Positions 1,838 through 55,098 of a stretch of DNA of 64,000 nucleotides are shown here, one piece after another (the stretch's first letter is position 1; each line of letters opens with the position of its first letter). The translations under genes and the position numbers were made by a program. The DNA is taken from NCBI RefSeq assembly GCF_015732185.1, contig NZ_WIQM01000008.1, forward strand, positions 434,001-498,000. Reading direction: 5' to 3'. Source of the DNA: Pectinatus haikarae (GTDB taxonomy: Bacteria; Bacillota; Negativicutes; Selenomonadales; Selenomonadaceae). Under the pieces are notes generated by a model that saw nothing but the letters and a program-made list of their open reading frames with translations, ran no database searches and had not been told where the DNA came from.

Positions 1838-3133
1838 TCAATCTTTTTGGGATAGATATAAGGTAAAGATTGTCCGTATATTTTCTTCGCTCTGCACAAT
1901 AAGCATACCATTGTTTTTTTCTGCCAATGCCTTGGCTATGGAAAGACCCAGGCCGCTTCCCTCGTACTTTTTGGCTTCAGATGATCGATAAAATCTGTCA
2001 AATACATATGGCAGGTCTTTCTCTCCTATGCCGGGACCTGTGTTGGAAACAGAAATGGCGGACATACCATTATGACAATGAGCCCGTAAAACGATTTTTC
2101 CGTTTCTTGGCGTGTATTTTACGGCATTGTCAATCAATATGGAAATGATCTGTTCAAGATGATTGCGGTCGACCCAGCCGTATAGATCAGGGACATCATC
2201 GATGACAGATAAAGCGATATTTTTATCTGCGGTTATGGTCTGAAATCGAGCTGCGGTATTTTTTAGGATGATATTAAGCCAGACACGATTTTTTTTCAGA
2301 CCGGCAGCACTGTTGTCGCATCTGGCCAGAAGCAGCATATTACTGATAAGAGCCTTCATTTTAAGAATTTCGCCTGTCATATCGCCGATTATTTCTTTGG
2401 AAAAGGCAGACATTTTATTGTCGGCATCATCTTTTAGAATATCGAGCCCTGATAAGAGAACACTCAGGGGGGTCCGCAGCTCATGAGAGGCATTTGCCGC
2501 AAAAAGAACTTGTTTTTCAAATGATTCGACAACCGGTTTCATGGCTTTGTTTGCCATAAAATTTGCGGCTTTATTGATAATAAAAAGAGTACATAACAAA
2601 AGGAGCGTTATCCAAAGAAGCAGCCTGCCAAGCAGCATCAGGTCATGGCTTATGTCAAAACCAGCATATACTTTTCCGGCATATTGGCCGTTATTCCAGA
2701 TGGATTCCCGTGTGATCACAAAAAAACGAAATTCTTTTTGCGCGGTAAAAACAATATGCATTTCGTACTGTCCGTCCTGCAACAGATCCTGAGTGGTCAG
2801 CGTTTCTATATCTGTCTTGCTCCAATCAATTTTATTGGACATTTTAAGCAGCTGATCATTTTTATCATACATATAATAAAATATTTTGTTCAAATATTTC
2901 TGACTGCTGTTATTGTCCAGCGGCAGATCGGGCAGCAGCTTTCCGTCGCTGACAATGTAGTTCAGCTCTTCAACTTCTTCCATTGCCAGAAGATGCGCCT
3001 GACTGATAAAATTGTTGTAGACGAGTGAAACAATGAAACCATAAATAAGCGTTATTAACATAAAAATGATTATACCGGTCAGCTGCATGTATCTTTTGAC
3101 TAATTTTTTGCGGAACTGTGAGAATAATTTCAT
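1838..3133 (-). CDS. Sensor histidine kinase, partner of the adjacent OmpR-type regulator
   Basis: A 431-residue membrane kinase. Two hydrophobic segments (about residues 20-40 and 168-187) enclose an extracytoplasmic domain of about 125 residues. The H-box ASHELRTPL places the phospho-accepting His at 217, followed by an N-box (DNAVKYTP) and G-boxes (GPGIGEKDLPYVFDRFYR, GSGLGLSIAKAL). Only about 25 residues separate TM2 from the H-box, so a full HAMP domain is missing. It starts 2 bases after the regulator gene stop, so the two are co-transcribed. Because the pair is divergent from the arn operon, a PmrB-like role in sensing envelope stress or cationic peptides is a reasonable inference, not proved by sequence. 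Confidence 0.9.
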   Translation of the reverse strand: MKLFSQFRKKLVKRYMQLTGIIIFMLITLIYGFIVSLVYNNFISQAHLLAMEEVEELNYIVSDGKLLPDLPLDNNSSQKYLNKIFYYMYDKNDQLLKMSNKIDWSKTDIETLTTQDLLQDGQYEMHIVFTAQKEFRFFVITRESIWNNGQYAGKVYAGFDISHDLMLLGRLLLWITLLLLCTLFIINKAANFMANKAMKPVVESFEKQVLFAANASHELRTPLSVLLSGLDILKDDADNKMSAFSKEIIGDMTGEILKMKALISNMLLLARCDNSAAGLKKNRVWLNIILKNTAARFQTITADKNIALSVIDDVPDLYGWVDRNHLEQIISILIDNAVKYTPRNGKIVLRAHCHNGMSAISVSNTGPGIGEKDLPYVFDRFYRSSEAKKYEGSGLGLSIAKALAEKNNGMLIVQSEENIRTIFTLYLSQKD

Positions 3134-3135
3134 GC

Positions 3136-3810
3136 TTATTCCTCAATTTTATAGCCGATGCCGTGCACTGTCTTGATCAGATCGTGTTTTCCTGCGTCAG
3201 CCAGCTTCTTTCTCAACAATTTTATTAATGCGTCAAGTGCATTGGAGGAGATTCCATCCTCATCATTCCATATCTTATTTATTATCTGTTCCCGCGGCAG
3301 TGTTGTTCCCTTATTCTGCAATAAAACGGACAGCAGCTGGAATTCTCTGCGCGTCAGTTGGAGGTCCTTTTCGTGAAGATATGCTGTGAATTTTGTTCTG
3401 TCAATCTTCAATTCTCCATCAAGAGAAATAATATTGTCTGTATATTGTTTATCCTGCCGGCGTAAAACGGCTCTTATCCGTGCCAGCAGTTCGGGAAATT
3501 CAAAGGGTTTGACGATATAGTCGTCAGCACCCTTGTCAAGACCGGTGATCCGATCATCAAGAGTATCCTTTGCTGTAAGCATAATGATACCGCAATTTTT
3601 ATTGCTTTGACGGATATTGACACAGACGTCAATACCGCTCTTTCCCGGCATCATCCAATCCAAGAGAACTACGTCATAGTTTGTAATGGACAGATAGCCG
3701 ATGGCATCTTCTCCGTTGTCAACTATATCGACATTGTAACCCTCCTTCTTTAATAGGAATCCAAGCATTTTTGAAAGCTTGCTGTCGTCTTCCGCCAATA
3801 ATATTTTCAT
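3136..3810 (-). CDS. OmpR/PhoB-family response regulator (probable regulator of the arn operon)
   Basis: Receiver domain with acidic pocket (EDD near residue 7 of this start), phospho-acceptor Asp in LLDWMMPG, Thr in MLTAKD and Lys in VKPFEFPELLARI, followed by a winged-helix C-terminal domain (REFQLLSVLLQNKG, KLLRKKLAD, TVHGIGYKIEE). A longer reading from GTG at 3819 is possible, but a GGAG ribosome site overlaps that GTG and sits 8 bases before ATG 3810, so 3810 is preferred (about 224 residues). First gene of a two-gene unit with the kinase. It is transcribed away from arnT; the shared intergenic region holds 6-N5-6 direct repeats of the type bound by this family. Confidence 0.92.
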   Translation of the reverse strand: MKILLAEDDSKLSKMLGFLLKKEGYNVDIVDNGEDAIGYLSITNYDVVLLDWMMPGKSGIDVCVNIRQSNKNCGIIMLTAKDTLDDRITGLDKGADDYIVKPFEFPELLARIRAVLRRQDKQYTDNIISLDGELKIDRTKFTAYLHEKDLQLTRREFQLLSVLLQNKGTTLPREQIINKIWNDEDGISSNALDALIKLLRKKLADAGKHDLIKTVHGIGYKIEE

Positions 3811-3990
3811 GGTTTTCACTCCGATTATTAAAAAATAGTAAATAACTTATATATACAGAGAAAAGTGGTTTCATCATGCCGGTACGTTCTGCAATTAATG
3901 ATCAGCAGGATATTTTATCGGCACGCGGCCGTATCCATATTTCAAAAGCAGGGGCATCTAAAAAATATCTATTTTATTTTAGCGTGCGTG

Positions 3991-4070
3991 TCTGAATTTA
4001 TTCTGAAAATTTTCAGATATAAAAGGAGCGTCAGGAAAGACTGTGAAAGTATGTTTCATAAATATTTCAT
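3991..4070. promoter_or_regulatory. Two 6-N5-6 direct repeats, candidate response-regulator sites
   Basis: TCTGAA occurs at 3991-3996 and 4002-4007 (11-bp period), and TTTCAT at 4054-4059 and 4065-4070 (11-bp period). The second TCTGAA also begins a perfect 16-bp palindrome at 4002-4017. Two half sites one helical turn apart are the usual binding architecture of OmpR/PhoB-family regulators such as PmrA. The region 3811-4178 between the regulator and arnT holds no gene. Confidence 0.45.
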
Positions 4071-4100
4071 ATCTATTGATTAAAATAATAAGAGAGATGG

Positions 4101-4140
4101 ATACTGTCAAACTTGCTTAATGACAGTATAATGATATAAT
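4101..4140 (+). promoter_or_regulatory. arn operon promoter overlapped by a perfect inverted repeat
   Basis: ATACTGTCA (4101-4109) and TGACAGTAT (4121-4129) form a perfect 9-bp inverted repeat with an 11-base spacer. Candidate promoter: TTGCTT 4113-4118, 16-base spacer, TATAAT 4135-4140; a second TATAAT lies at 4127-4132. The repeat covers the -35 side, as an operator would. No T-run follows, so it is not a terminator. Confidence 0.5.
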
Positions 4141-4178
4141 AATTCTAGTTATACGCATTTTTAGGAAGGAGTATTTTA

Positions 4179-5828
4179 TTGCATACATTGAACACTCGGC
4201 AAAAAAAAATAGCGGTGCTTGTTATCGTATTTTCTATTATTGCCCTGTATATTGTCCACATTAATGATTACCCCTTGATGGAACCGGATGAAGGCCGCTA
4301 TGGCGAGATTCCGCGAGAAATGCTGGCTACCGGAGATTTTATAACACCGCGTTTAAATGGTGTTGAGTACTTTGAAAAACCGGTTTTACAGTACTGGCTG
4401 ACGGCGGCATCCATGTATGTTTTTGGGGAAAATGAGGGTGCTACCCGTGTTGTTCCCGCAGTAATGGGGATAATGAATGTTTTTCTCACTGCATGGCTGG
4501 GAAAAATGATGTTTACCAAGCGCACTGGTCTATTGACAGCTGTTATTTTGGCGACATCGACACTGCACATCGTCGTTGGTTCGATTGACATACTTGATAT
4601 GATGATAACGATGTTTATGACACTTTCACTGGCGTCATTTTATAAAGCCCGTCTCAGCAAAAACAGAAAATGGTATCTTCTGTTTTATGCGGCAATGGCA
4701 TTGGGGCTGCTGACAAAGGGACTCATTTCCATAGTGCTTCCTTTGGGGATAATTTTTTGGTATATGATCTTTACCAGGCAGTGGAGTATTGTACGTGATA
4801 TTATATACCTGCCGGGTATTTTTTTGTTCCTGATATTAAGTGTACCATGGTTTTATCTGGTATGTCGTGCCAATCCAGATTTTTTCTATTTCTTTTTTAT
4901 ACGTGAGCATTTTTTACGCTTTGCTACTAAAATGGCGGATCGATATCAGCCATTTTGGTTTTTCATCCCCATGATAATATTGGGCATGTTTCCCTGGCTG
5001 GGTTTTTTACCCGCGCTTTTTGCAAAAAAAGGTATTGTCCGCCACATAGAATCGAATAAAAATAAACATGATATTATATTTCTGCTGACATGGTTTTTGG
5101 TTGTGTTTCTGTTTTATTCACTTTCAGATTCAAAACTGGTGCCATATATATTGCCGTGTCTTTCCGCTCTGGCAATTTTGATTGCCGCTTCAATAAGAAG
5201 ATCATCTCAGCTTGGCAGATGGATGGGCAGCGTCCTTTTGCTGAACAGCATAGGCTGGTTCATCTTTATAGCGGCGCTTATAGGATATTCGCTGCATGCT
5301 GATTACCTGAGCGCATGGCAGATATTCCGCAAGGGCTGGCTCATTTTTCTTTCTTTGACTTTCGGACTGGCAGGAGTCCTTTTTGTCTGGTTCAAGACTA
5401 AGCAGATACGCTGTACTGTTTCGGCTATGGCGGCAGTGGCATTCCTTTTTGCGTGCGGGCTGCAGTCTATTCACGGACAGGTCGCAGTTCAGAGGACAGC
5501 AGTATATGTTGCTGATGATATACGAAATATTCAGGAACCAGGAGATATTGTTGTTTCATATGGCGATTATGTGCAGGGACTTGCGTTTTATTTGCAGAAA
5601 CGTATAGTTGTGGCATCATATCTCGGTGAATTGGAATTTGGCGCAGGGCACCCTGGAGGACAGGGGTGGTTTATTGATGATGACCAGCTCACCGATTTAT
5701 GGAACAGTGACAAAAGGGTATTTATAGTATTTGATAAAAGCAAGAAAAAACTGATAAAAAATATCTTGCCCGGGGCGGTAAAAGAAATGCAGCCTAAAGG
5801 TGGATATTACTATATTGTCAATAAATAA
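4179..5828 (+). CDS. arnT: Undecaprenyl phosphate-alpha-Ara4N transferase ArnT
   Basis: Inner-membrane GT83 glycosyltransferase that moves 4-amino-4-deoxy-L-arabinose from undecaprenyl phosphate to lipid A on the periplasmic side. The 549 residues match the family length (about 550). The N-terminal block after TM1 (YPLMEPDEGRYGEIPREM, then FEKPVLQYW) carries the conserved acidic/Arg signature; about a dozen hydrophobic segments follow, then a soluble C-terminal domain. Start is TTG at 4179, 8 bases after AGGAAGGA; no better start is seen. First gene of the arn operon, whereas in E. coli arnT comes after arnD. The gap to arnB is 115 bases. Presence in a Firmicute indicates a lipid A-bearing outer membrane. 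Confidence 0.93.
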   Translation: MHTLNTRQKKIAVLVIVFSIIALYIVHINDYPLMEPDEGRYGEIPREMLATGDFITPRLNGVEYFEKPVLQYWLTAASMYVFGENEGATRVVPAVMGIMNVFLTAWLGKMMFTKRTGLLTAVILATSTLHIVVGSIDILDMMITMFMTLSLASFYKARLSKNRKWYLLFYAAMALGLLTKGLISIVLPLGIIFWYMIFTRQWSIVRDIIYLPGIFLFLILSVPWFYLVCRANPDFFYFFFIREHFLRFATKMADRYQPFWFFIPMIILGMFPWLGFLPALFAKKGIVRHIESNKNKHDIIFLLTWFLVVFLFYSLSDSKLVPYILPCLSALAILIAASIRRSSQLGRWMGSVLLLNSIGWFIFIAALIGYSLHADYLSAWQIFRKGWLIFLSLTFGLAGVLFVWFKTKQIRCTVSAMAAVAFLFACGLQSIHGQVAVQRTAVYVADDIRNIQEPGDIVVSYGDYVQGLAFYLQKRIVVASYLGELEFGAGHPGGQGWFIDDDQLTDLWNSDKRVFIVFDKSKKKLIKNILPGAVKEMQPKGGYYYIVNK

Positions 5829-5943
5829 AAACGATTCTTTTATGTATTTTTAGAAAACGATTCGGCTGCCGGTTCTGAGAACTGCTTAAATGCCGGCAGA
5901 TTTGCAAGCAGTATGAATCCTATAATCAAAGGAGTTTATTATA

Positions 5944-7101
5944 ATGAGAAAAGATTTTTTGCCTTTTTCCAAACCGTCTGTCAGTGAGGATGCCATAGCT
6001 GATGTTTGTGATTCCATACGTTCCGGCTGGCTGGCTATGGGTCCGAAAACCGTTGATTTCGAAGCAAAGTTTGCACAATACGTAGGCAGTAAATTTGCGA
6101 TATCGGTCAATTCTGCCACTGCCGGACTGCATTTGGCCGTTATGGCACTGGTGGAACCCGGCGATGAGGTTATAACCACGCCGATGACTTTTGCCAGTAC
6201 GCTGAATGCTATCATTTATTCAGGAGCTGTGCCGATTTTGGCTGATATCGATCCGCTGACACTTAATATAGATCCGAAAAGGCTGGAGGAAAAGATAACG
6301 GCTAAGACAAAGGCGGTAATACCGGTCCATTTTGCAGGCCGCCCTTGTGATATGGATGCTATTGAACAAATTGCGAAGAAACATGATATTGCGATAATTG
6401 AGGACAGCGCCCATGCGATGGGGTCTGTGTACCATGGCAGGAAGATCGGAGCAGGCAGAGGGGCCAGGCATATTGCCGTGTTCAGTTTTCATCCGACTAA
6501 GAATATGACAACAGGCGAGGGCGGCATGATAACGACTGATGATGAAAAAGCAGCAGACCGTATGTCTGTACAGCGGCAAAATGGTATGGATAAAGGGGCA
6601 TGGAATCGTTTTGGCGCAAAAGGGAAAAGTCATTATGACATTTTTGTTCCGGGACTTAAATATCAAATGATGGATATTCAGGCTGCTATAGGCCGTGATC
6701 AGCTGAAATATCTGGACGAATTCAACAAGCGCCGTGCTCAGATTGTTGCCAGATATGATGAGGCTTTTGCCTCTGTGCAGGGATTGACGCTGCCGGCAGC
6801 GGTCGAAGAGGACTGTACTCATTCATGGCATATTTATACGCCGCTTATAGAAAGCAGTGAAACAGGCTTTACCCGTGACGAATTTATGGAAAAGATGAAG
6901 CAGTATAATATAGGTACGGCATATCATTATCAGGCAGTTCACTTATTCAGCGGCTATGCAAAGATAACCGGACTGAAAAAGGGCGATATGCCGGTGGCTG
7001 AAGCGATCGGTGAAAAGATAGTATCGCTGCCTCTTTTCCCGGCAATGACGGATCAGGATGTGGATGATGTGATCGAAGCAGTACAGACTGTTTGTAAATA
7101 A
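5944..7101 (+). CDS. arnB: UDP-4-amino-4-deoxy-L-arabinose aminotransferase ArnB
   Basis: PLP-dependent DegT/DnrJ/EryC1 aminotransferase, 385 residues as in known ArnB proteins. It converts UDP-L-Ara4-ulose to UDP-L-Ara4N with glutamate as amino donor, in the cytoplasm. The PLP lysine is K186 in SFHPTKNMTTGEGGM; the cofactor Asp lies in IIEDSAHAMG and the substrate-binding block in SVNSATAGLHLA. Start ATG follows AAAGGAG. It lies between arnT and arnC in the same direction, 17 bases before arnC. Confidence 0.95.
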   Translation: MRKDFLPFSKPSVSEDAIADVCDSIRSGWLAMGPKTVDFEAKFAQYVGSKFAISVNSATAGLHLAVMALVEPGDEVITTPMTFASTLNAIIYSGAVPILADIDPLTLNIDPKRLEEKITAKTKAVIPVHFAGRPCDMDAIEQIAKKHDIAIIEDSAHAMGSVYHGRKIGAGRGARHIAVFSFHPTKNMTTGEGGMITTDDEKAADRMSVQRQNGMDKGAWNRFGAKGKSHYDIFVPGLKYQMMDIQAAIGRDQLKYLDEFNKRRAQIVARYDEAFASVQGLTLPAAVEEDCTHSWHIYTPLIESSETGFTRDEFMEKMKQYNIGTAYHYQAVHLFSGYAKITGLKKGDMPVAEAIGEKIVSLPLFPAMTDQDVDDVIEAVQTVCK

Positions 7102-7118
7102 GAGCGTGAAAAGGTGAA

Positions 7119-8063
7119 ATGATGGTTCCCGAAATATCTATAGTTATTCCTGTGTATAATGAGGAAGAATCTTTGCCCCGTCTGTTTGAGGAATTATATC
7201 CTGTAATGGAGAAATTGGGCAGAAAATATGAGATAGTTTTTGTTAATGACGGCAGTAAGGATAAATCTTTTTCCATGTTGTATGATTTTCAGAAAATGCA
7301 TCCGCATACTGTCCGGCTTATTGATTTCAACGGTAATTTTGGACAGCATATGGCGATCATGGCAGCATTTTCACATGTATGCGGGAAGTTTATAATCACT
7401 CTTGATGCCGATCTGCAGAATCCTCCTTCTGAAATCCCCAAACTTGTAAAGAAAATGGATGAAGGGCACGACGTAGTCGGTTCCTGTCGGAAAAACAGGC
7501 GAGATCCATTTTTCAGGAAAGCCGCATCAAGGGTAGTCAATAAGATAACAAACAGTATAACGGGTCTGCAGATCAATGACTATGGCTGCATGCTCAGAGG
7601 CTATGATCGCAGAATTATCGACATCATAGCGAACAGCAATGAATCAACAACCTTTATTCCCGCACTGGGTCAAAAATATGCGGTTAATCCTGTCGAGATT
7701 GTTGTAGAACATCGTGAGCGTGAATATGGGATGTCTAAATACAGCATGTTTCGTTTGATAAGACTGAATTTTGATCTTATGACCAGTTTTTCCTTGTCGC
7801 CGCTTCAGTGGGTGACGATGAGCGGGATGGGGATATCAGTGCTTAGTTTCCTGCTTGTGGCTTATATGCTGATAAGAAGATTTGTTATAGGTTCTGAGGC
7901 GGAAGGTTTATTTACGCTTATGGCCATTCAATTTTTCTTGACGGGCATTTCAATCATGAGCCTAGGAATAATTGGTGAATACATAGGGCGTATTTATAAA
8001 CAGATTCAAAAAAGACCTCGTTTTGTAATCAAAAAAATATGGGAAGAGGATATTGATGAATAA
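7119..8063 (+). CDS. arnC: Undecaprenyl-phosphate Ara4FN transferase ArnC
   Basis: GT2-family glycosyltransferase that transfers 4-deoxy-4-formamido-L-arabinose from UDP to undecaprenyl phosphate at the cytoplasmic face. The N-terminal GT-A fold shows SIVIPVYNEEESLPRLF and the metal-binding DADLQNPPSE motif; two hydrophobic C-terminal segments (about 225-250 and 262-287) anchor it. It has 314 residues, against 322 in E. coli. The start may be either of two adjacent ATGs (7119 or 7122) after AAGGTG. Its end overlaps the next gene by 8 bases, indicating translational coupling. Confidence 0.94.
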   Translation: MMVPEISIVIPVYNEEESLPRLFEELYPVMEKLGRKYEIVFVNDGSKDKSFSMLYDFQKMHPHTVRLIDFNGNFGQHMAIMAAFSHVCGKFIITLDADLQNPPSEIPKLVKKMDEGHDVVGSCRKNRRDPFFRKAASRVVNKITNSITGLQINDYGCMLRGYDRRIIDIIANSNESTTFIPALGQKYAVNPVEIVVEHREREYGMSKYSMFRLIRLNFDLMTSFSLSPLQWVTMSGMGISVLSFLLVAYMLIRRFVIGSEAEGLFTLMAIQFFLTGISIMSLGIIGEYIGRIYKQIQKRPRFVIKKIWEEDIDE

Positions 8064-9066
8064 AGCAATTGATTCCCGCCCTTCCATCGCTTTATTTGCT
8101 TACAGTCAACCGGGATTTGCCTGTCTTGAGGAGCTGATTGCCGCACATGCCAATCTGGCTGCTGTATTTACGCACACAGATTCTTCGGATGAAGAGATAT
8201 GGTTTAATTCAGTATACGATCTGGCGAAGAAAAAAAACATCCCTGTTTATAGATCAGTAAAAATAGATGAAGCGGCATTTCCTTTTTTTGCAGCGGCTGC
8301 ACCTGATATAGTTTTATCGGCATATTACAGGGCAATGATACCAAGTGAATTTTTGCGCGCGCCGCGTCTGGGCGCCTATAATCTGCACGGATCTCTGCTG
8401 CCCAAATACCGGGGCAGAGCCTGCATCAATTGGGCTGTTTTGAACGGAGAAAAACAGACAGGTGTGACTATGCATGTTATGACAGAAAAGGCCGATCAGG
8501 GGGATATAATAGCGCAGAAAATATTTCCGATCGATTTTCAGGATACAGGATATGATATTTTTCTGAAGGCCAGTACGGCTGTTAAAAATATAGTGAAAGA
8601 ATATTTGCCCCTTATCGAGAACGGAAAAGCACCGCATAGAAAACAGGATGAAACACAGGCTACAAAATTTGGCCGACGCTGTCCTGAAGATGGGATCATA
8701 GACTGGCAGGACAATGCCGAAGCTGTCTATAATCTGATAAGATCAGTAACTCATCCCTTCCCCGGGGCATTCACTTTTTTGAGAGAGCGTAAGATATTCA
8801 TATGGCAGGCATTGCCGCTGACGGATGAATTGTTTTTTCAAAAATATGGGATAAAAGATAGAGAAAATATGCCGGCTCTTATTGCGGGAAGCATCATCAC
8901 TGTGAGAACAGACGTCCTTGTAAAATGTGGCCGCGGTTTTTTACTATTAAAAGATATATCGCTGGCTGATAAATCGGACAGTCAATTACTCAGGAAGCTG
9001 TCCGGTCGTTTCTCCGCAGCAGAGAAGGTCTCGGCGCTAAAAAAATATAAGGAGCAGAATAAATGA
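8056..9066 (+). CDS. arnA: UDP-Ara4N formyltransferase (stand-alone N-terminal half of ArnA)
   Basis: Formyl-transferase fold that uses 10-formyltetrahydrofolate to N-formylate UDP-L-Ara4N. The catalytic triad of the ArnA formyltransferase domain is present: N109 and H111 in AYNLHGSLLPKYRGRACINW, and D147 in KADQGDIIA. In E. coli this is the N-terminal domain of a bifunctional 660-residue ArnA. Here it is a separate 336-residue protein and the dehydrogenase half is the next gene (4-base overlap). The ATG at 8056 is preferred over TTG 8053 because AAGAGGA lies at proper spacing. Confidence 0.9.
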   Translation: MNKAIDSRPSIALFAYSQPGFACLEELIAAHANLAAVFTHTDSSDEEIWFNSVYDLAKKKNIPVYRSVKIDEAAFPFFAAAAPDIVLSAYYRAMIPSEFLRAPRLGAYNLHGSLLPKYRGRACINWAVLNGEKQTGVTMHVMTEKADQGDIIAQKIFPIDFQDTGYDIFLKASTAVKNIVKEYLPLIENGKAPHRKQDETQATKFGRRCPEDGIIDWQDNAEAVYNLIRSVTHPFPGAFTFLRERKIFIWQALPLTDELFFQKYGIKDRENMPALIAGSIITVRTDVLVKCGRGFLLLKDISLADKSDSQLLRKLSGRFSAAEKVSALKKYKEQNK

Positions 9067-10097
9067 AAATATTTATTACCGGAATTAACGGTTTTATAGG
9101 AACGCACCTTTTGCGGGCCATATTGCAGAAAACTGATTGGCAGATACAGGGATTTGATCTGCACAATAATAATCTGGGCGAGTTTGCGGGCAATCCCCGG
9201 TTTTCGATGAAAACAGGCGACATATTCGAAGAAGAAAGCTGGCTGGAACAGGCTGTTAAAGAAAATGATGTTATTTTGCCTCTTGCCGGCATAGCACGGC
9301 CTGCTTATTATATAACGCATCCTTTGTGGACTTTTGAACTCGACTTTGAGCAAAATTTAAAGATAGTAAGACACTGTGCCAAGTATAAAAAAAGAGTTAT
9401 TTTCCCTTCTACCTCTGAAGTATATGGGATGCCCACAGAAAACAGCAAAGTAATGATCGAAGATGAAAGCACACTGACTTTAGGACCTATAAAAAAATCG
9501 CGCTGGATATACAGCTGCAGCAAGCAGATGATGGATCGTGTAATTTTCGCTTTCGGTCAGGAAAAAAATCTTCCGTTCTCTATTTTCCGCCCCTTTAACT
9601 GGGTAGGGCCGGGACTGGATACGTTCAAAGATGCCGCAGAACATAAGGCTCGTTCCATAACACAATTTATATATGATATTTTATATACGGGCAAGATAAA
9701 CCTTGTCGGCGGCGGTGCACAGAAACGGTCATTTATATGGGTGGGAGACGGGATCGACGGACTCATTGCCATAATAAAAAATGAAGACAATAAAGCCAAT
9801 GGTGAAATATTTAACTTAGGCAATCCCGCCAATCATTATTCTATTAAGGAATTGGCTTTGATGATAATAGAAGAAATGAAAAATTATCCTCAGTTTGCCG
9901 CTAAGGCAAGATCTGTTGAATTGGTGGATATACCGGCGGCCCAATATTACGGTAAAAATTATGATGATATGCAGGATCGTCTGCCATCCATACAAAAGAT
10001 GAAGGATCTGCTCTGCTGGGAACCAAAAACATCATTGCGTGAAGCTATTAAATTCACATTGGATTGGCATGCTGCACAGTTGGAAAAGGGTTTGTGA
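9063..10097 (+). CDS. arnA: UDP-glucuronate decarboxylase/dehydrogenase (stand-alone C-terminal half of ArnA)
   Basis: Extended short-chain dehydrogenase that oxidises and decarboxylates UDP-glucuronate to UDP-L-Ara4-ulose. The NAD motif GINGFIGTHL is at residues 7-16. The catalytic set matches the ArnA dehydrogenase domain: T117, S118 and E119 in PSTSEVYGM, Y150 and K154 in YSCSKQMMD, and the Arg in YDDMQDRLPS that corresponds to E. coli R619. The 344 residues correspond to one domain only; overlap with the formyltransferase gene is ATGA. Having both halves as neighbours explains how the pathway is complete without a fused ArnA. Confidence 0.92.
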   Translation: MKIFITGINGFIGTHLLRAILQKTDWQIQGFDLHNNNLGEFAGNPRFSMKTGDIFEEESWLEQAVKENDVILPLAGIARPAYYITHPLWTFELDFEQNLKIVRHCAKYKKRVIFPSTSEVYGMPTENSKVMIEDESTLTLGPIKKSRWIYSCSKQMMDRVIFAFGQEKNLPFSIFRPFNWVGPGLDTFKDAAEHKARSITQFIYDILYTGKINLVGGGAQKRSFIWVGDGIDGLIAIIKNEDNKANGEIFNLGNPANHYSIKELALMIIEEMKNYPQFAAKARSVELVDIPAAQYYGKNYDDMQDRLPSIQKMKDLLCWEPKTSLREAIKFTLDWHAAQLEKGL

Positions 10098-10100
10098 TAT

Positions 10101-10994
10101 ATGCCGAAAAAAATTGCCATTAAAATAGATGTTGACACAAAAAGAGGATATGAACAGGGCGTACCCAATATGCTGGATGTCTTTCAAAAAAATGGCATAA
10201 AGGCGACATTTTTCTTTTCGATGGGACCTGATAATTCGGGAAAAGCTATACGCCGAATTTTCCGCAAAGGGTTTTTGGCAAAAATGCTTCGTACTAAAGC
10301 ACCGTCTACATATGGATTAAAAACTATGATGTATGGAACAGTTTTGCCTGCACCGCTTATTGTGGAACCCAATACGGCACCTTTTCTCAGGGCAATGGCA
10401 GACGGACATGACTGCGGGATTCATTGCTGGGATCATGTATATTGGCAGGATAAACTTCCCGGATTGTCTGAAGAAAAAATACGCCTGCACTTGACGAAAG
10501 CTTGCCATTTATTTGAAAAAATCGCCCACAGAAAACCGCGTTTCTGCGGTGCGCCGGGCTGGCAGACGACCTATAAAAGTTTAAAAGTCCAACAGGAATT
10601 AGGCTTTGATTTCTGCTCGGATGTGCGAGGCTATTATCCTTTTTATCCGATAATGGAAGGAAAAGAATTTTCTCCGCTGCAGATTCCCGGTACTTTGCTG
10701 ACGATGGATGAAGTACTCGGTATAATGGGCGTTACTGAGAATAATATAGTAGACTACTGGCTGAAAAATTGCGATAGCATATGGAATGTGTTTACTATCC
10801 ATGCAGAGATGGAAGGCTTGTCAAAATTGGCTGTTCTTGATGATTTTATTGTCAGAGCTAAGGCTCAAGGTTTTGAATTTGTACTTTTGAAAGAAGGCAA
10901 AAACCTCCCCAATATAAAAAAATGCCGTGTTTATGCCGGAAATCTACCGGGAAGAGCAGGGACTGTTGCTCTGCAAAGTGACCCGTTGAATTAA
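10101..10994 (+). CDS. arnD: Ara4FN-undecaprenyl-phosphate deformylase ArnD
   Basis: Polysaccharide-deacetylase-fold enzyme that removes the formyl group from the lipid-linked sugar before flipping. Motif 1 is KIDVDTKRGYEQGVPN with the catalytic Asp pair, the metal-binding region is GIHCWDHVYW, and the C-terminal block CRVYAGNLPGRAGTVALQ matches the family end. At 297 residues it is about the size of E. coli ArnD (296). It starts 3 bases after the previous stop. The TAA stop (10992-10994) lies inside the outermost bases of the inverted repeat of the downstream IS, yet the protein appears essentially intact. No arnE/arnF flippase genes or ugd follow; the operon ends at the IS. Confidence 0.93.
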   Translation: MPKKIAIKIDVDTKRGYEQGVPNMLDVFQKNGIKATFFFSMGPDNSGKAIRRIFRKGFLAKMLRTKAPSTYGLKTMMYGTVLPAPLIVEPNTAPFLRAMADGHDCGIHCWDHVYWQDKLPGLSEEKIRLHLTKACHLFEKIAHRKPRFCGAPGWQTTYKSLKVQQELGFDFCSDVRGYYPFYPIMEGKEFSPLQIPGTLLTMDEVLGIMGVTENNIVDYWLKNCDSIWNVFTIHAEMEGLSKLAVLDDFIVRAKAQGFEFVLLKEGKNLPNIKKCRVYAGNLPGRAGTVALQSDPLN

Positions 10995-11131: not shown

Positions 11132-12706
11132 TTATGCGGCTTTCTTCAAGCGTAGTTTTTTATTGTGGTATTTATAAAGATTGTGCCCAATGGAAACCAG
11201 GAAAATCTCTAAACGTACCTGTTCCATGCCTTTTCGAACAATTCTTTTGTACCAGCGGTTATTTTTCATAATCCCAAAAGTACCTTCAGATTGAATCGAG
11301 CGATTCATACGAAGAAGCGCTCCTTGAATGCTTTCTAGGTTATCCACAACTTCTTGGTGTATAGAGGTTAGTTCCTGGTTAAGACGAATCGTCCTGTTTT
11401 TATCCGTCTTCTTGCACTCGGAGGCATACGGACAATCCCTGCAATTTTCACACTGGTAAACTTCTTCCTGACGTCCGTATCGATTCCCTTTTACATTTCG
11501 TCTGTATTGAAGGTGAAATGCCTGTCCGGCCGGACAGCGCAGTGTGCCTTTTTCGTCAATCTTGAAATTCACTGCCCGAAACGGATTATCTCGATACTTT
11601 GCGTCAGTAGTTTCTTTCTTGTACATAGTAAATTTCATATACTTTTCCATACCGTGTTGCTCACAGTAAATATAATTGTTGTATGAACCATATCCTGCAT
11701 CAGCAACTGGATACTTTGGATAAAATCCGTAGGTATTATGAAATTTCTCCAGTAAGGGAACAAAACAATCCATGTCTGCACGGTATTGATTTACATCAGC
11801 TACAGCTATGTATTCATCTGCAATACCAAATTGAATGTTGTAGGCTGGCAGGAGCTGGTCGTTGCCCATATAATCTGTCTTGATCCGCATGAATGTCGCA
11901 CAGTGATCTGTTTTGGAATAACTGTTCCGGTCTGGACCACAAATGGTTATCTTTTCAACATATTCTTTGAGTTTCGCTGTATATTCCTGAAGCCGTTCGT
12001 AATAGCGCTGCCGGGGTGTTTTTCGATGGCCTTTTCCATGGACAAATTTTGTTTCATCTATTTCATAGATTTTGGCATACCGATCCGTTACTTCACTTAG
12101 GTACTCAGGAACGTATTCGGAATTCGTATCAATTTTGATGCCAAAGCTGGCAAGATCGTCGTTGATTTCATCGAGTAATCCCGTGACTTTTTCAAAAAGT
12201 CTATATCTAGATTTTTCAGTCGCTTTCTTCCATACCCAGCTATATTTATTAGCATTTGCCTCAAATTTCGAACCGTCAATATACAGATGGCTCAAATCCA
12301 CATGATCTTTGGCAAAAATTTTATTGTTGATCTCGCTGAACAATTCCTCAACCGATGGTTTGAGCATAGTTTCGATAAAATAGCCGAACGTGCGATAAGA
12401 TGGAGTCTCGCGTTCCATGAGATACATAAAGCGAAGATTGACTTTACAGCTATCTTCGAGCTCACGTAGCGATATATATCCATTTGTCATAAATCCAAAT
12501 AAGATTGTTTTCAACATGCTGGTCGGGTTGTATCTGATGCGTCCGGTAACGTGTTCCGGAACATTTTTCAGGTACTTCTCCAAGTCGATTCCCCCCATGA
12601 ATCTGTCGAAAACCAGCACAGGATCACAAATATCCAGAAAATCCGAAATAAATAGTGGCAAAACTGCCTGTTTTGTTTTAAAATAATTGATGGTTGAATT
12701 TTTCAT
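11132..12706 (-). CDS. IS1182-family DDE transposase
   Basis: A full-length 524-residue transposase. The N-terminal DUF772-like domain (about residues 15-100, LVFDRFMGGIDLEKYL, TLFGFMTNGYISLREL) is followed by a DDE nuclease fold. Candidate acidic residues: first Asp in HLYIDGSKFEANANKY, second in PVADAGYGSYNNYIYC, Glu in RSIQSEGTFGIMKNNRWYKR. A Cys-rich stretch (CENCRDCPYASECKK, about residues 417-431) is typical of the group. The reading frame is uninterrupted, so the element could be active. It is transcribed on the minus strand towards arnD. Confidence 0.93.
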   Translation of the reverse strand: MKNSTINYFKTKQAVLPLFISDFLDICDPVLVFDRFMGGIDLEKYLKNVPEHVTGRIRYNPTSMLKTILFGFMTNGYISLRELEDSCKVNLRFMYLMERETPSYRTFGYFIETMLKPSVEELFSEINNKIFAKDHVDLSHLYIDGSKFEANANKYSWVWKKATEKSRYRLFEKVTGLLDEINDDLASFGIKIDTNSEYVPEYLSEVTDRYAKIYEIDETKFVHGKGHRKTPRQRYYERLQEYTAKLKEYVEKITICGPDRNSYSKTDHCATFMRIKTDYMGNDQLLPAYNIQFGIADEYIAVADVNQYRADMDCFVPLLEKFHNTYGFYPKYPVADAGYGSYNNYIYCEQHGMEKYMKFTMYKKETTDAKYRDNPFRAVNFKIDEKGTLRCPAGQAFHLQYRRNVKGNRYGRQEEVYQCENCRDCPYASECKKTDKNRTIRLNQELTSIHQEVVDNLESIQGALLRMNRSIQSEGTFGIMKNNRWYKRIVRKGMEQVRLEIFLVSIGHNLYKYHNKKLRLKKAA

Positions 12707-20772: not shown

Positions 20773-21468
20773 ATGTCAATATTTTCTGTATTGATTGTTG
20801 ATGATGATGAAAAATTGGTCAAATTGCTGAAAGCTTATTTTGACAGGGAAGACTTTATTACATATACTGCCGAAGACGGACTTTCAGCTTTACAGGCAGT
20901 GAAGGATAAAAGCCCCAGTGTCATTATTCTTGATCTGATGCTGCCGGGCATGAGCGGCTGGGATGTATGCAAACAAGTAAGGCGTGATAATGACACTCCT
21001 ATTCTCATGCTTACTGCCAGAGACGAAGAAAGTGATCGATTGATCGGTCTGGAGATTGGCGCGGATGATTATGTAACTAAGCCGTTCAGCCCGCGTGAAG
21101 TGGTTGCCAGAGTGAAGGCGATTTTAAGACGTGTTGGCAATAGCGTTGTAAACAGAAGAATTTTGAAGATGGATAATATTACTATTGATCCTGAACGCCA
21201 TCAGGTATTTAATGGGGGTCTTCCGGTAGAACTCACTCCCACTGAATTTAAATTATTGGAGTTGTTGGCTGGCAATCCCGGGAAAGTTTTTACCAGACTG
21301 CAAATTGTCGAACAAACACAAGGTTATATGTTTGACGGATATGAGCGGACTATTGACACTCATATTAAAAATCTGCGTCGTAAACTGGAAGCTGATCCAA
21401 AAAATCCGCGCTATTTGCAGACCGTATATGGTATTGGCTATAAGTTTAATGGCGGCAGTAATGAGTAG
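20773..21468 (+). CDS. OmpR-family response regulator
   Basis: Receiver with VDDDEK, phospho-acceptor D54 (IILDLMLPGMSG), LTARDEE and TKPFSPREVVARV, then a winged-helix domain (PTEFKLLELLAGNPGKVF, RTIDTHIKNLRRKLE, TVYGIGYKF). Start is ATG 20773 after AGGAGACGG rather than TTG 20755. It overlaps the downstream kinase gene by 8 bases. The sequence type is close to CssR/BaeR-like regulators; targets are unknown. It follows the DUF364 gene by about 100 bases and may regulate its neighbours. Confidence 0.93.
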   Translation: MSIFSVLIVDDDEKLVKLLKAYFDREDFITYTAEDGLSALQAVKDKSPSVIILDLMLPGMSGWDVCKQVRRDNDTPILMLTARDEESDRLIGLEIGADDYVTKPFSPREVVARVKAILRRVGNSVVNRRILKMDNITIDPERHQVFNGGLPVELTPTEFKLLELLAGNPGKVFTRLQIVEQTQGYMFDGYERTIDTHIKNLRRKLEADPKNPRYLQTVYGIGYKFNGGSNE

Positions 21469-53332: not shown

Positions 53333-53472
53333 GTTTCATGAATTTTGCAACATGAATTTATTTGGATTTTAATACATTTTATCTTTTTGTTAAAAAATTT
53401 TTTTTTCATATTAATTTCATTTTAACAGAATATAATAGTAATATTCACGAATACATTTCAGAGGGAATATGT

Positions 53473-53799
53473 ATGCAATTAGAATGGATCTATCTCATAA
53501 CAGCTGGTTTTTTAGAAATATCTTGGGCGGTATCGCTTAAATATACAGCCGGTTTTACTGTTCTGCTGCCGTCGCTGTTTACGGCAGCGGCGATGCTGGG
53601 CAGTGTGTATCTGCTTGATCTGGCCACGAAGGAGATTCCCATAGGTACTGCCTATGCCGTATGGACAGGGATCGGTGCAGCGGGTACTGCTGTGGCGGGA
53701 ATTATTCTATTTGGAGAATCTCATGAACTATGGCGGTTTTTTTGTATTTTCCTTATCATTGCAGGAGTTGTGGGACTTAAAATCAACATTGGCGGCTGA
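53473..53799 (+). CDS. SMR-family exporter of the SugE/Gdx type
   Basis: 108 residues, four membrane segments. Essential Glu14 lies in TAGFLEISWAVSLKYTAGFT, and the GTAYAVWTGIGAAGTA motif is typical of SugE/Gdx, many of which export guanidinium; other SMR proteins export quaternary ammonium drugs. Start ATG after GAGGG; the open frame extends upstream but without a ribosome site. No guanidine riboswitch is recognisable upstream. It lies 39 bases before the next gene. Confidence 0.88.
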   Translation: MQLEWIYLITAGFLEISWAVSLKYTAGFTVLLPSLFTAAAMLGSVYLLDLATKEIPIGTAYAVWTGIGAAGTAVAGIILFGESHELWRFFCIFLIIAGVVGLKINIGG

Positions 53800-53838
53800 A
53801 CACCGCTTATATATTACTAATGTTTAAGGATGGTGCTT

Positions 53839-55098
53839 ATGGAAAAAATGGCTGTACCCGCGAAGAAGATATTTCAAAAGCAGGAAGATTCATGGGGGTT
53901 TGAAAGTTTTACAACGTCTGCCTTACAGGAAGGTTTTTTTCATGATATTTTAACGACAACCAGACCGGTAGGTCCGACAATAACATATGACAATAAAGAT
54001 TTCATTAATTTTGCCAGTATCAATATTCTTGATTTGCATCAGGAAAAAGATGTGCTTGGGCATTTTCATGAGGCTGCTGATACTTATGGACTGACAACAG
54101 GCGGTTCGCGCGTTACACAGGGTGTCTGCAAAGCACACAAAGAGATGGAAACAAAACTTTGTCGGTATGTGGGAAAGCAGCGCGCCATTTCATTTGCCAG
54201 CGGACTGTTGGCAAATGTAGGATTTATTAATGCTATGTCTTGTAATTTTCACTTCAGTGAAAGCTGCAATATCAGTAACAGCGATGCAGTTTTTATATTG
54301 GACCGTGATTGTCACTGGAGCTTGTGGAAGGCAGCATCGCATTTAAAATTCGGAAAGCAGCTTTTTTCTTTTCGACATAATAATCCGCAAGATCTGGATA
54401 AATTATTGAGAAAATTGTCGGTTTCACACACTAAAATAATTGTGATATTTGAAAGTGTATATTCTGCCGATGGGTCTGTTGCACCTATGCGGGAATTGTT
54501 TGATGTGTGCGAACGTTATCATGCGCTGAGCTATGTTGATGACGCGAACGGTTTTATGATATACGGTCCTCAAAACCGTCTTTTTGCGGAGGAATTTGCG
54601 CAGCTCAGACGTGCTACTTTCGTCATGGTGTCTTTTTCCAAGGCTGTTGGAATGGAAGGCGGCGCTATTGCCGGACCGGAAAATTATATACATGCTTTTG
54701 AAGTTCTTTCGGGCACTTCTTTATTTACTGCTGCCATTCAGCCGCCTACAGCCAGTACTATTTGTTATATAATGGATAAATTATCGGCATGTCCGTCAAT
54801 TATGGACAGTTATCTTGAACGGTCATTGGATCTGCGTAAACGGCTGACCAAGCTCCAATTTGTCTTGAATGATGCATCATCTTATATTATTTCCGTTATT
54901 ATCGGCAATGATGAAAAAGCCGTGAGTGTATATAATGAATTTCTGCAAGAAAAAATGATCGTACCGATGTTCCGTTATCCCGCAGTGAAACCTGATCATG
55001 CACTTATACGAATCATGCTGAATGCTCATCATACGCAGGATCAAATTGACCGCCTGGTTGATGTTCTCAAGCGGCTGCAGAAAAAATATGATTTTTAA
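53839..55098 (+). CDS. Alpha-oxoamine-synthase-family PLP enzyme, atypical active site
   Basis: 419 residues, fold type I PLP enzyme related to AONS, KBL, ALAS and SPT, which condense an amino acid with an acyl-CoA. H159 (DRDCHWSLW, stacks on PLP), D234 and Schiff-base K268 (VSFSKAVGMEGGA) are in place, but the usual DEAH is DDAN, so the second catalytic His is N237. No acyl carrier or biotin/heme genes are nearby. ATG 53839 after AAGGA is preferred to 53830. Product unknown; it may be a variant synthase or a PLP enzyme of another reaction. Confidence 0.78.
   Translation: MEKMAVPAKKIFQKQEDSWGFESFTTSALQEGFFHDILTTTRPVGPTITYDNKDFINFASINILDLHQEKDVLGHFHEAADTYGLTTGGSRVTQGVCKAHKEMETKLCRYVGKQRAISFASGLLANVGFINAMSCNFHFSESCNISNSDAVFILDRDCHWSLWKAASHLKFGKQLFSFRHNNPQDLDKLLRKLSVSHTKIIVIFESVYSADGSVAPMRELFDVCERYHALSYVDDANGFMIYGPQNRLFAEEFAQLRRATFVMVSFSKAVGMEGGAIAGPENYIHAFEVLSGTSLFTAAIQPPTASTICYIMDKLSACPSIMDSYLERSLDLRKRLTKLQFVLNDASSYIISVIIGNDEKAVSVYNEFLQEKMIVPMFRYPAVKPDHALIRIMLNAHHTQDQIDRLVDVLKRLQKKYDF

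Follow-up and report, generated by a model that had tools for sequence, protein, structure and literature searches.

How does a Firmicute that bears lipopolysaccharide control the modification of its lipid A? The control of the outer membrane in such bacteria has been little worked out. Among the matches listed for our literature searches on Pectinatus response regulators and on regulons, response regulators and polymyxin in Negativicutes, no paper dealt with outer-membrane control, and the search on Pectinatus lipid A retrieved none on that subject. The lipid A of Pectinatus carries aminoarabinose. The question is raised here by an intergenic region (3811-4178) in the 3.1-Mb genome of Pectinatus haikarae, a beer-spoilage bacterium of the Negativicutes; all positions refer to the window, i.e., the whole stretch of 64,000 nucleotides that was analysed. 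Minus-strand genes for an OmpR-type response regulator and a histidine kinase lie on one side of this region, and a plus-strand arn operon lies on the other. The genes are as follows.

1838-3133, minus strand: sensor histidine kinase, 431 aa (Pfam HisKA and HATPase_c)
3136-3810, minus strand: OmpR/PhoB-family response regulator, 224 aa (Pfam Response_reg and Trans_reg_C, both above cut-offs)
4179-10994, plus strand: arn operon (best NCBIfam matches are Arn families; same gene order in the genomes of genus g7, see below)
4179-5828, plus strand: arnT (Pfam Arnt_C above cut-off)
5944-7101, plus strand: arnB
7119-8063, plus strand: arnC
8053-9066, plus strand: formyltransferase part of a split arnA
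9063-10097, plus strand: UDP-GlcA decarboxylase-type part of the split arnA (PRK11908, 450.8 bits against a cut-off of 294)
10101-10994, plus strand: arnD

Homologues of arnB, arnC, arnA, arnD and arnT are thus all present together in the operon, as judged with NCBIfam and Pfam. Only the decarboxylase scores above a curated NCBIfam cut-off (PRK11908), while the other Arn proteins match the right models below theirs. The gap between the end of arnD (10994) and a transposase-like ORF starting at 11132 contains no ORF for an ArnE/ArnF flippase. The latter ORF (11132-12706), which we take to be an IS1182-type transposase, abuts the 3' end of the operon. The start of the response regulator was taken as the ATG at 3810; the ORF list gives a GTG at 3819. 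Its homologues in four other Pectinatus genomes are 84, 74, 72 and 69% identical.

The first-pass annotation described two direct repeats in the intergenic region, TCTGAA-N5-TCTGAA and TTTCAT-N5-TTTCAT, as separate elements. Both are real and were located at 3991-3996 and 4002-4007, and at 4054-4059 and 4065-4070, respectively. They are, however, two orientations of a single box: on the minus strand, TCTGAA-N5-TCTGAA becomes TTTCAG-N5-ATTCAG, which is the same motif as the second repeat. The two copies stand back to back on opposite strands, and the distance from the first base of the box to a TAAAAT hexamer is 27 bp in both. This common motif and its equal register to a -10 element had been missed in the earlier reading. 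The elements of the region, with promoters as predicted, are listed below.

3976-3981, minus strand: TAAAAT, -10 element for the response-regulator gene, at 10 bp from box A
3992-4008, minus strand: box A, TTTCAG-AATAA-ATTCAG, facing the response-regulator gene
4054-4070, plus strand: box B, TTTCAT-AAATA-TTTCAT, facing arnT
4081-4086, plus strand: TAAAAT, -10 element of P1 (the distal, box-dependent promoter of arn), at 10 bp from box B
4101-4129, no strand assigned: 9-bp inverted repeat flanking the -35 element of P2, common only to the nearest species
4113-4140, plus strand: proximal arn promoter P2, TTGCTT followed after 16 bp by TATAAT (4135-4140); a TG at 4132-4133 extends the -10 element

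Among 3000 dinucleotide shuffles of 3811-4178, at least one perfect 6-N5-6 direct repeat was obtained in 402 and at least two in 32. The composite TTTCAK-N5-WTTCAK-N10-TADAAT on both strands was obtained in none of 20000 shuffles of the same region.

Conservation was assessed in seven genomes, namely five of Pectinatus (the window's own and four others) and two of genus g7, whose ArnT proteins are 50-51% identical. The comparison with related genomes that the first-pass annotation had proposed as a check upheld the direct repeats, which are kept in all four other Pectinatus; two of the copies carry mismatches (two in the box A copy of G046 and one in the arn-facing copy of G043). The arn-facing unit, comprising box B and its -10 element, was present in all seven genomes. 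The divergent unit (box A with its -10 element) was present in five of five Pectinatus and in neither g7 genome, and the -10 element at the box A register reads TAAAAT or TAGAAT in each of the five. The arn operon, the regulator and the kinase remain neighbours in all five Pectinatus. In G043, the divergent genes are uppP followed by the regulator and the kinase, and the box A copy faces this uppP-response-regulator pair. Autoregulation is not universal, since the response-regulator genes of both g7 genomes have no box despite the box at arn. The g7 genomes possess two arnT genes each, with an EmrE-like ORF near the arnT genes (loci L150 and L151), and the second arnT of G039 is also preceded by a box: TTTCAGCTTCTTTTCAG, N10, TAGTAT (L150, 1487-1519).

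Downstream of box B, a promoter scan offered the pair CTGTCA-N17-TATAAT (4104-4132), the -10 element of which reads TATGAT in G043. P2 was instead placed at TTGCTT/TGnTATAAT because TTGC and TGnTATAAT are kept in five of five Pectinatus and the -10 element offered by the scan is not. The distance of P2 from the -10 element of box B varies from 36 or 54 bp at the lower end to 222 bp; P1 and P2 are therefore taken to be separate arn promoters.

The pattern TTTCAB-N5-WTTCAB-N10-TANAMT was then searched with zero mismatch in 189 genomes of the order. A total of 90 sites was found in 69 of these genomes, part of them inside coding sequence or pointing away from genes; several of the 55 loci examined had no downstream gene or lay in coding sequence (e.g., L155, L164, L183, L193 and L202). 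The reversed pattern gave 2 sites in the same genomes. This control leaves room for opposite-strand matches to start codons of the ATGAAA type; both spacing controls, however, retain those half-sites. Widening the gap between the half-sites to N6 reduced the count to 19, and widening the gap to the -10 element to N14 reduced it to 6. Both distances therefore matter, and this dependence fits a dimeric activator that would touch RNA polymerase. With up to one mismatch, 21 matches against 2 for the reversed pattern were found in the seven genomes of Pectinatus and g7. A search for the box alone, likewise with up to one mismatch, gave 75 against 22. A two-mismatch pattern (108 against 43 reversed in five genomes) was discarded as too noisy, with many matches in coding sequence. 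Counts for the regulon include only intergenic sites that face a gene.

In Pectinatus, the genes with an intergenic box in the right orientation include the regulator, arnT, an extra undecaprenyl-diphosphatase gene (uppP), an operon with an SMR-family transporter and a predicted amidase. The SMR operon is located in the window, downstream of a third box.

53404-53436, plus strand: third box with -10 element, TTTCAT-ATTAA-TTTCAT-N10-TATAAT, a perfect copy
53473-53799, plus strand: SMR-family transporter
53830-55098, plus strand: BioF/serine palmitoyltransferase-like alpha-oxoamine synthase

This operon is boxed in all three Pectinatus that possess it (the window's own genome, G045 and G046); at the threshold used, the alpha-oxoamine synthase was not found in G043 and G044. 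The SMR gene is boxed also outside Pectinatus (G047; genus g9, L187). The extra uppP is boxed in the window's own genome and in G045. In G043, the uppP before the response regulator has a box, and the orthologue of the extra uppP (contig 57) has none. Undecaprenyl phosphate is the carrier of the arn pathway, and the box ties the extra undecaprenyl-diphosphatase to arn as a user of this carrier. The amidase of the window's own genome is a predicted secreted protein (Amidase_2), with TAGCAT as the -10 element. Further boxed genes are a diacylglycerol glycosyltransferase-like gene in G043 (box with TAAAGT) and a lipid A acyltransferase gene in G015.

In genus g6, the box stands just upstream of the nearest homologue of the response regulator in 14 of 14 genomes, and the nearest homologue in G012 is boxed as well. 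For the closest regulator of most other genera, the full unit is approached to within two to six mismatches. Among the seven other OmpR-family regulator genes found in the window's own genome, none has the full unit within three mismatches, and the box alone is likewise absent from them. In genus g10, boxes were repeatedly seen before genes for small secreted proteins (L189, L190, L191 and L195). The one such protein that was scanned (G061) contains a 3D domain, which suggests that the targets in g10 concern the cell wall. The window holds a further gene for an OmpR-type response regulator, which lies at about 20785-21447 (G000:C4:454785-455447) and has no box upstream.

Which protein would read these boxes? 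The product of 3136-3810 belongs to the OmpR/PhoB family: it consists of a receiver and a winged-helix Trans_reg_C domain, its partner has HisKA and HATPase domains, all passing Pfam cut-offs, and tandem half-sites about 11 bp apart occur in the target promoters. The first-pass annotation had suggested a PmrA-like activator. The family, the direct-repeat sites at an arn operon of a diderm Firmicute and a PmrA-like role agree with this suggestion, while the identity with PmrA itself does not hold: the regulator scores 179.2 bits on the PmrA (BasR) model PRK10643, the cut-off being 330. It also remains below the cut-offs for PhoB (TIGR02154, 207.7 against 296.2 bits) and for RppA, its best NCBIfam match (NF041734, 222 against 250 bits). 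Another regulator of the same genome reaches 247.8 bits on TIGR02154, also below the cut-off. A tree of the regulators contains long-branched paralogues and was left out of the argument.

The reading that we consider probable, although not certain, is that of an OmpR/PhoB-family activator that controls its own gene together with genes for lipid A modification and the envelope, with one regulator serving the divergent promoters. The boxes, their mutual identity, their register, their conservation and their enrichment are observations; from them we infer which protein binds, in which direction it acts and what it responds to. The kinase (1838-3133) would phosphorylate the response regulator (3136-3810), which would bind the TTTCAK-N5-WTTCAK boxes as a head-to-tail dimer. 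In class II activation by PhoB-type regulators, the site usually lies at a fixed 10 bp from a -10 element that has no good -35, and the box, 10 bp upstream of the -10 element, would here stand in for a good -35 and lead to activation of this class. Box A would drive the regulator and kinase genes in positive autoregulation. Box B would drive the arn operon, the products of which place 4-amino-4-deoxy-L-arabinose on lipid A, and P2 probably supplies basal arn expression. The regulator would drive the extra undecaprenyl-diphosphatase gene, the SMR/alpha-oxoamine synthase operon and the secreted amidase as well. In seven aligned kinases (five from Pectinatus and two from g7), an E-E-x-E-[ED] motif follows the first hydrophobic segment at a distance of about 12-15 residues, and E-E-x-E is invariant in all seven. 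Because of this ExxE motif and the target genes, our guess at the signal is a stress on the envelope, for example Fe3+/Zn2+ or cationic peptides. A circuit of this design would be of an ordinary kind and new in this setting, and the comparative evidence for it appears good.

Three described systems invite comparison. PhoB acts through pho boxes whose direct repeats of 11-bp period replace the -35 element about 10 bp from the -10 element, as here; the pho half-site is TGTCA rather than TTTCA, and PhoR has a PAS domain. In the Pfam scan, by contrast, the window kinase shows HisKA and HATPase domains and no PAS domain, and the predicted targets are envelope genes. PmrA-PmrB (BasR-BasS) of enterobacteria resembles the window system as an activator of arn (pbgP) that acts via two hexamers 5 bp apart, and among the relatives of the window regulator with solved structures, BasR is one of the best. 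The PmrA box is given as CTTAAG-N5-NTTAAT in PMC3973317; TTTCAT-N5-TTTCAT has equal spacing and other half-sites (yTTAAk in the PmrA box versus TTTCAK here). The window system also has another gene neighbourhood and additional targets.

ColR-ColS shares with the window system an OmpR-family regulator, head-to-tail half-sites that are based on TTCA and recur every 11 bp, targets in the envelope and lipid A, and a kinase ExxE motif outside the membrane. The consensus of Pseudomonas putida ColR, as stated in PMC2689224, is YYNASNNYTTTTT(C/G)AC (16 bp), with TTCA cores 11 bp apart in sites such as TTTCACGTTTTTTTCAC at PP0737. Counted by hand, each of the two intergenic boxes deviates from this consensus at four informative positions and the g6 boxes at two. 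The register of the box and the TTCA cores agree. According to PMC4074579, the ExxE motif of ColS senses Fe3+ and Zn2+ and sits near the second membrane segment, and colRS expression is unaffected by metals; the ExxE motif of the window kinase, in contrast, comes just after the first hydrophobic segment, and the gene of the window regulator is itself boxed. As a motif, the box is nearest to the register of the published ColR consensus, nearer than to the PmrA box. The regulator is best read as PmrA- or ColR-like in its presumed role and is classed under neither.

A wider reading, which we put forward as doubtful, is that TTTCAB-N5-WTTCAB boxes and one OmpR-type clade define a family-wide envelope-stress regulon of diderm Firmicutes, which would couple lipid A aminoarabinose, the recycling of undecaprenyl diphosphate and the SMR/alpha-oxoamine synthase operon. 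Because the half-site core matches that of Pseudomonas ColR, the circuit may descend from an older form of lipid A control that predates the split of the phyla, or may have moved with the arn genes. The box makes it possible to ask whether the control of lipid A charge in Firmicutes and Proteobacteria has a common origin, and it offers a concrete candidate regulator, a candidate regulon and a testable promoter design.

The boxes might instead be read by another OmpR/PhoB-family regulator, for example a PhoB-like one, with the neighbouring two-component system being merely a target. Eight such regulators were detected in the genome at the threshold used, three of which outscore the window regulator on the PhoB model, and the sites of this family are in general direct repeats of about 11 bp (PMC2689224). 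We regard this as unlikely nonetheless: the box accompanies this regulator's gene in Pectinatus and the nearest homologue in all 14 g6 genomes, is found at none of the seven other regulator genes, and the arn operon, the regulator and the kinase adjoin in every Pectinatus examined, with uppP between them in G043. Distinctly unlikely, in our view, is a box that serves as a repressor site, by which the regulator would block both promoters until a signal removes it. The box does cover the place of the -35 element, and ColR is described as both activating and repressing (PMC2689224). Against repression, the fixed 10-bp gap to a -10 element without a good -35 is a class II layout, and repressor sites need no fixed register, yet the N14 control falls from 90 to 6. 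Activation by the neighbouring regulator remains the preferred reading of the boxes.

Two palindromes occur in the region. An 8+8 palindrome, TCTGAAAA/TTTTCAGA (TCTGAAAATTTTCAGA), at 4002-4017 overlaps box A; it is confined to this genome, being absent from P. cerevisiiphilus, and was rejected. The perfect 9-bp inverted repeat noted in the first-pass annotation is indeed present (ATACTGTCA at 4101-4109 and TGACAGTAT at 4121-4129, with an 11-bp loop). In shuffles of 3811-4178, a 9-bp inverted repeat with a loop of up to 20 was obtained in 230 of 3000 (7.7%), and the palindrome alone is weak evidence. Genome-wide, it shows no excess: 12 strand-hits (6 places) were counted at up to three mismatches, compared with 22 when the pattern was reversed. 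The two most similar copies elsewhere in the genome both fall within coding sequence. A second regulator at this palindrome, as suggested in the first-pass annotation, here taken to be dimeric and probably a repressor and to act next to an OmpR-family activator at the repeats, is very unlikely: arm pairing, complete here (9 of 9), falls to 1, 2 and 6 of 9 in three other Pectinatus, and the apparent conservation is inflated by the overlap of the right arm with conserved letters of the promoter. In favour of some function, the repeat is perfect and flanks the -35 element of the conserved promoter P2, and P. cerevisiiphilus retains 8 of 9 pairs, including one in which both partners have changed. 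A role of the palindrome in P. haikarae and P. cerevisiiphilus as a pair is possible.
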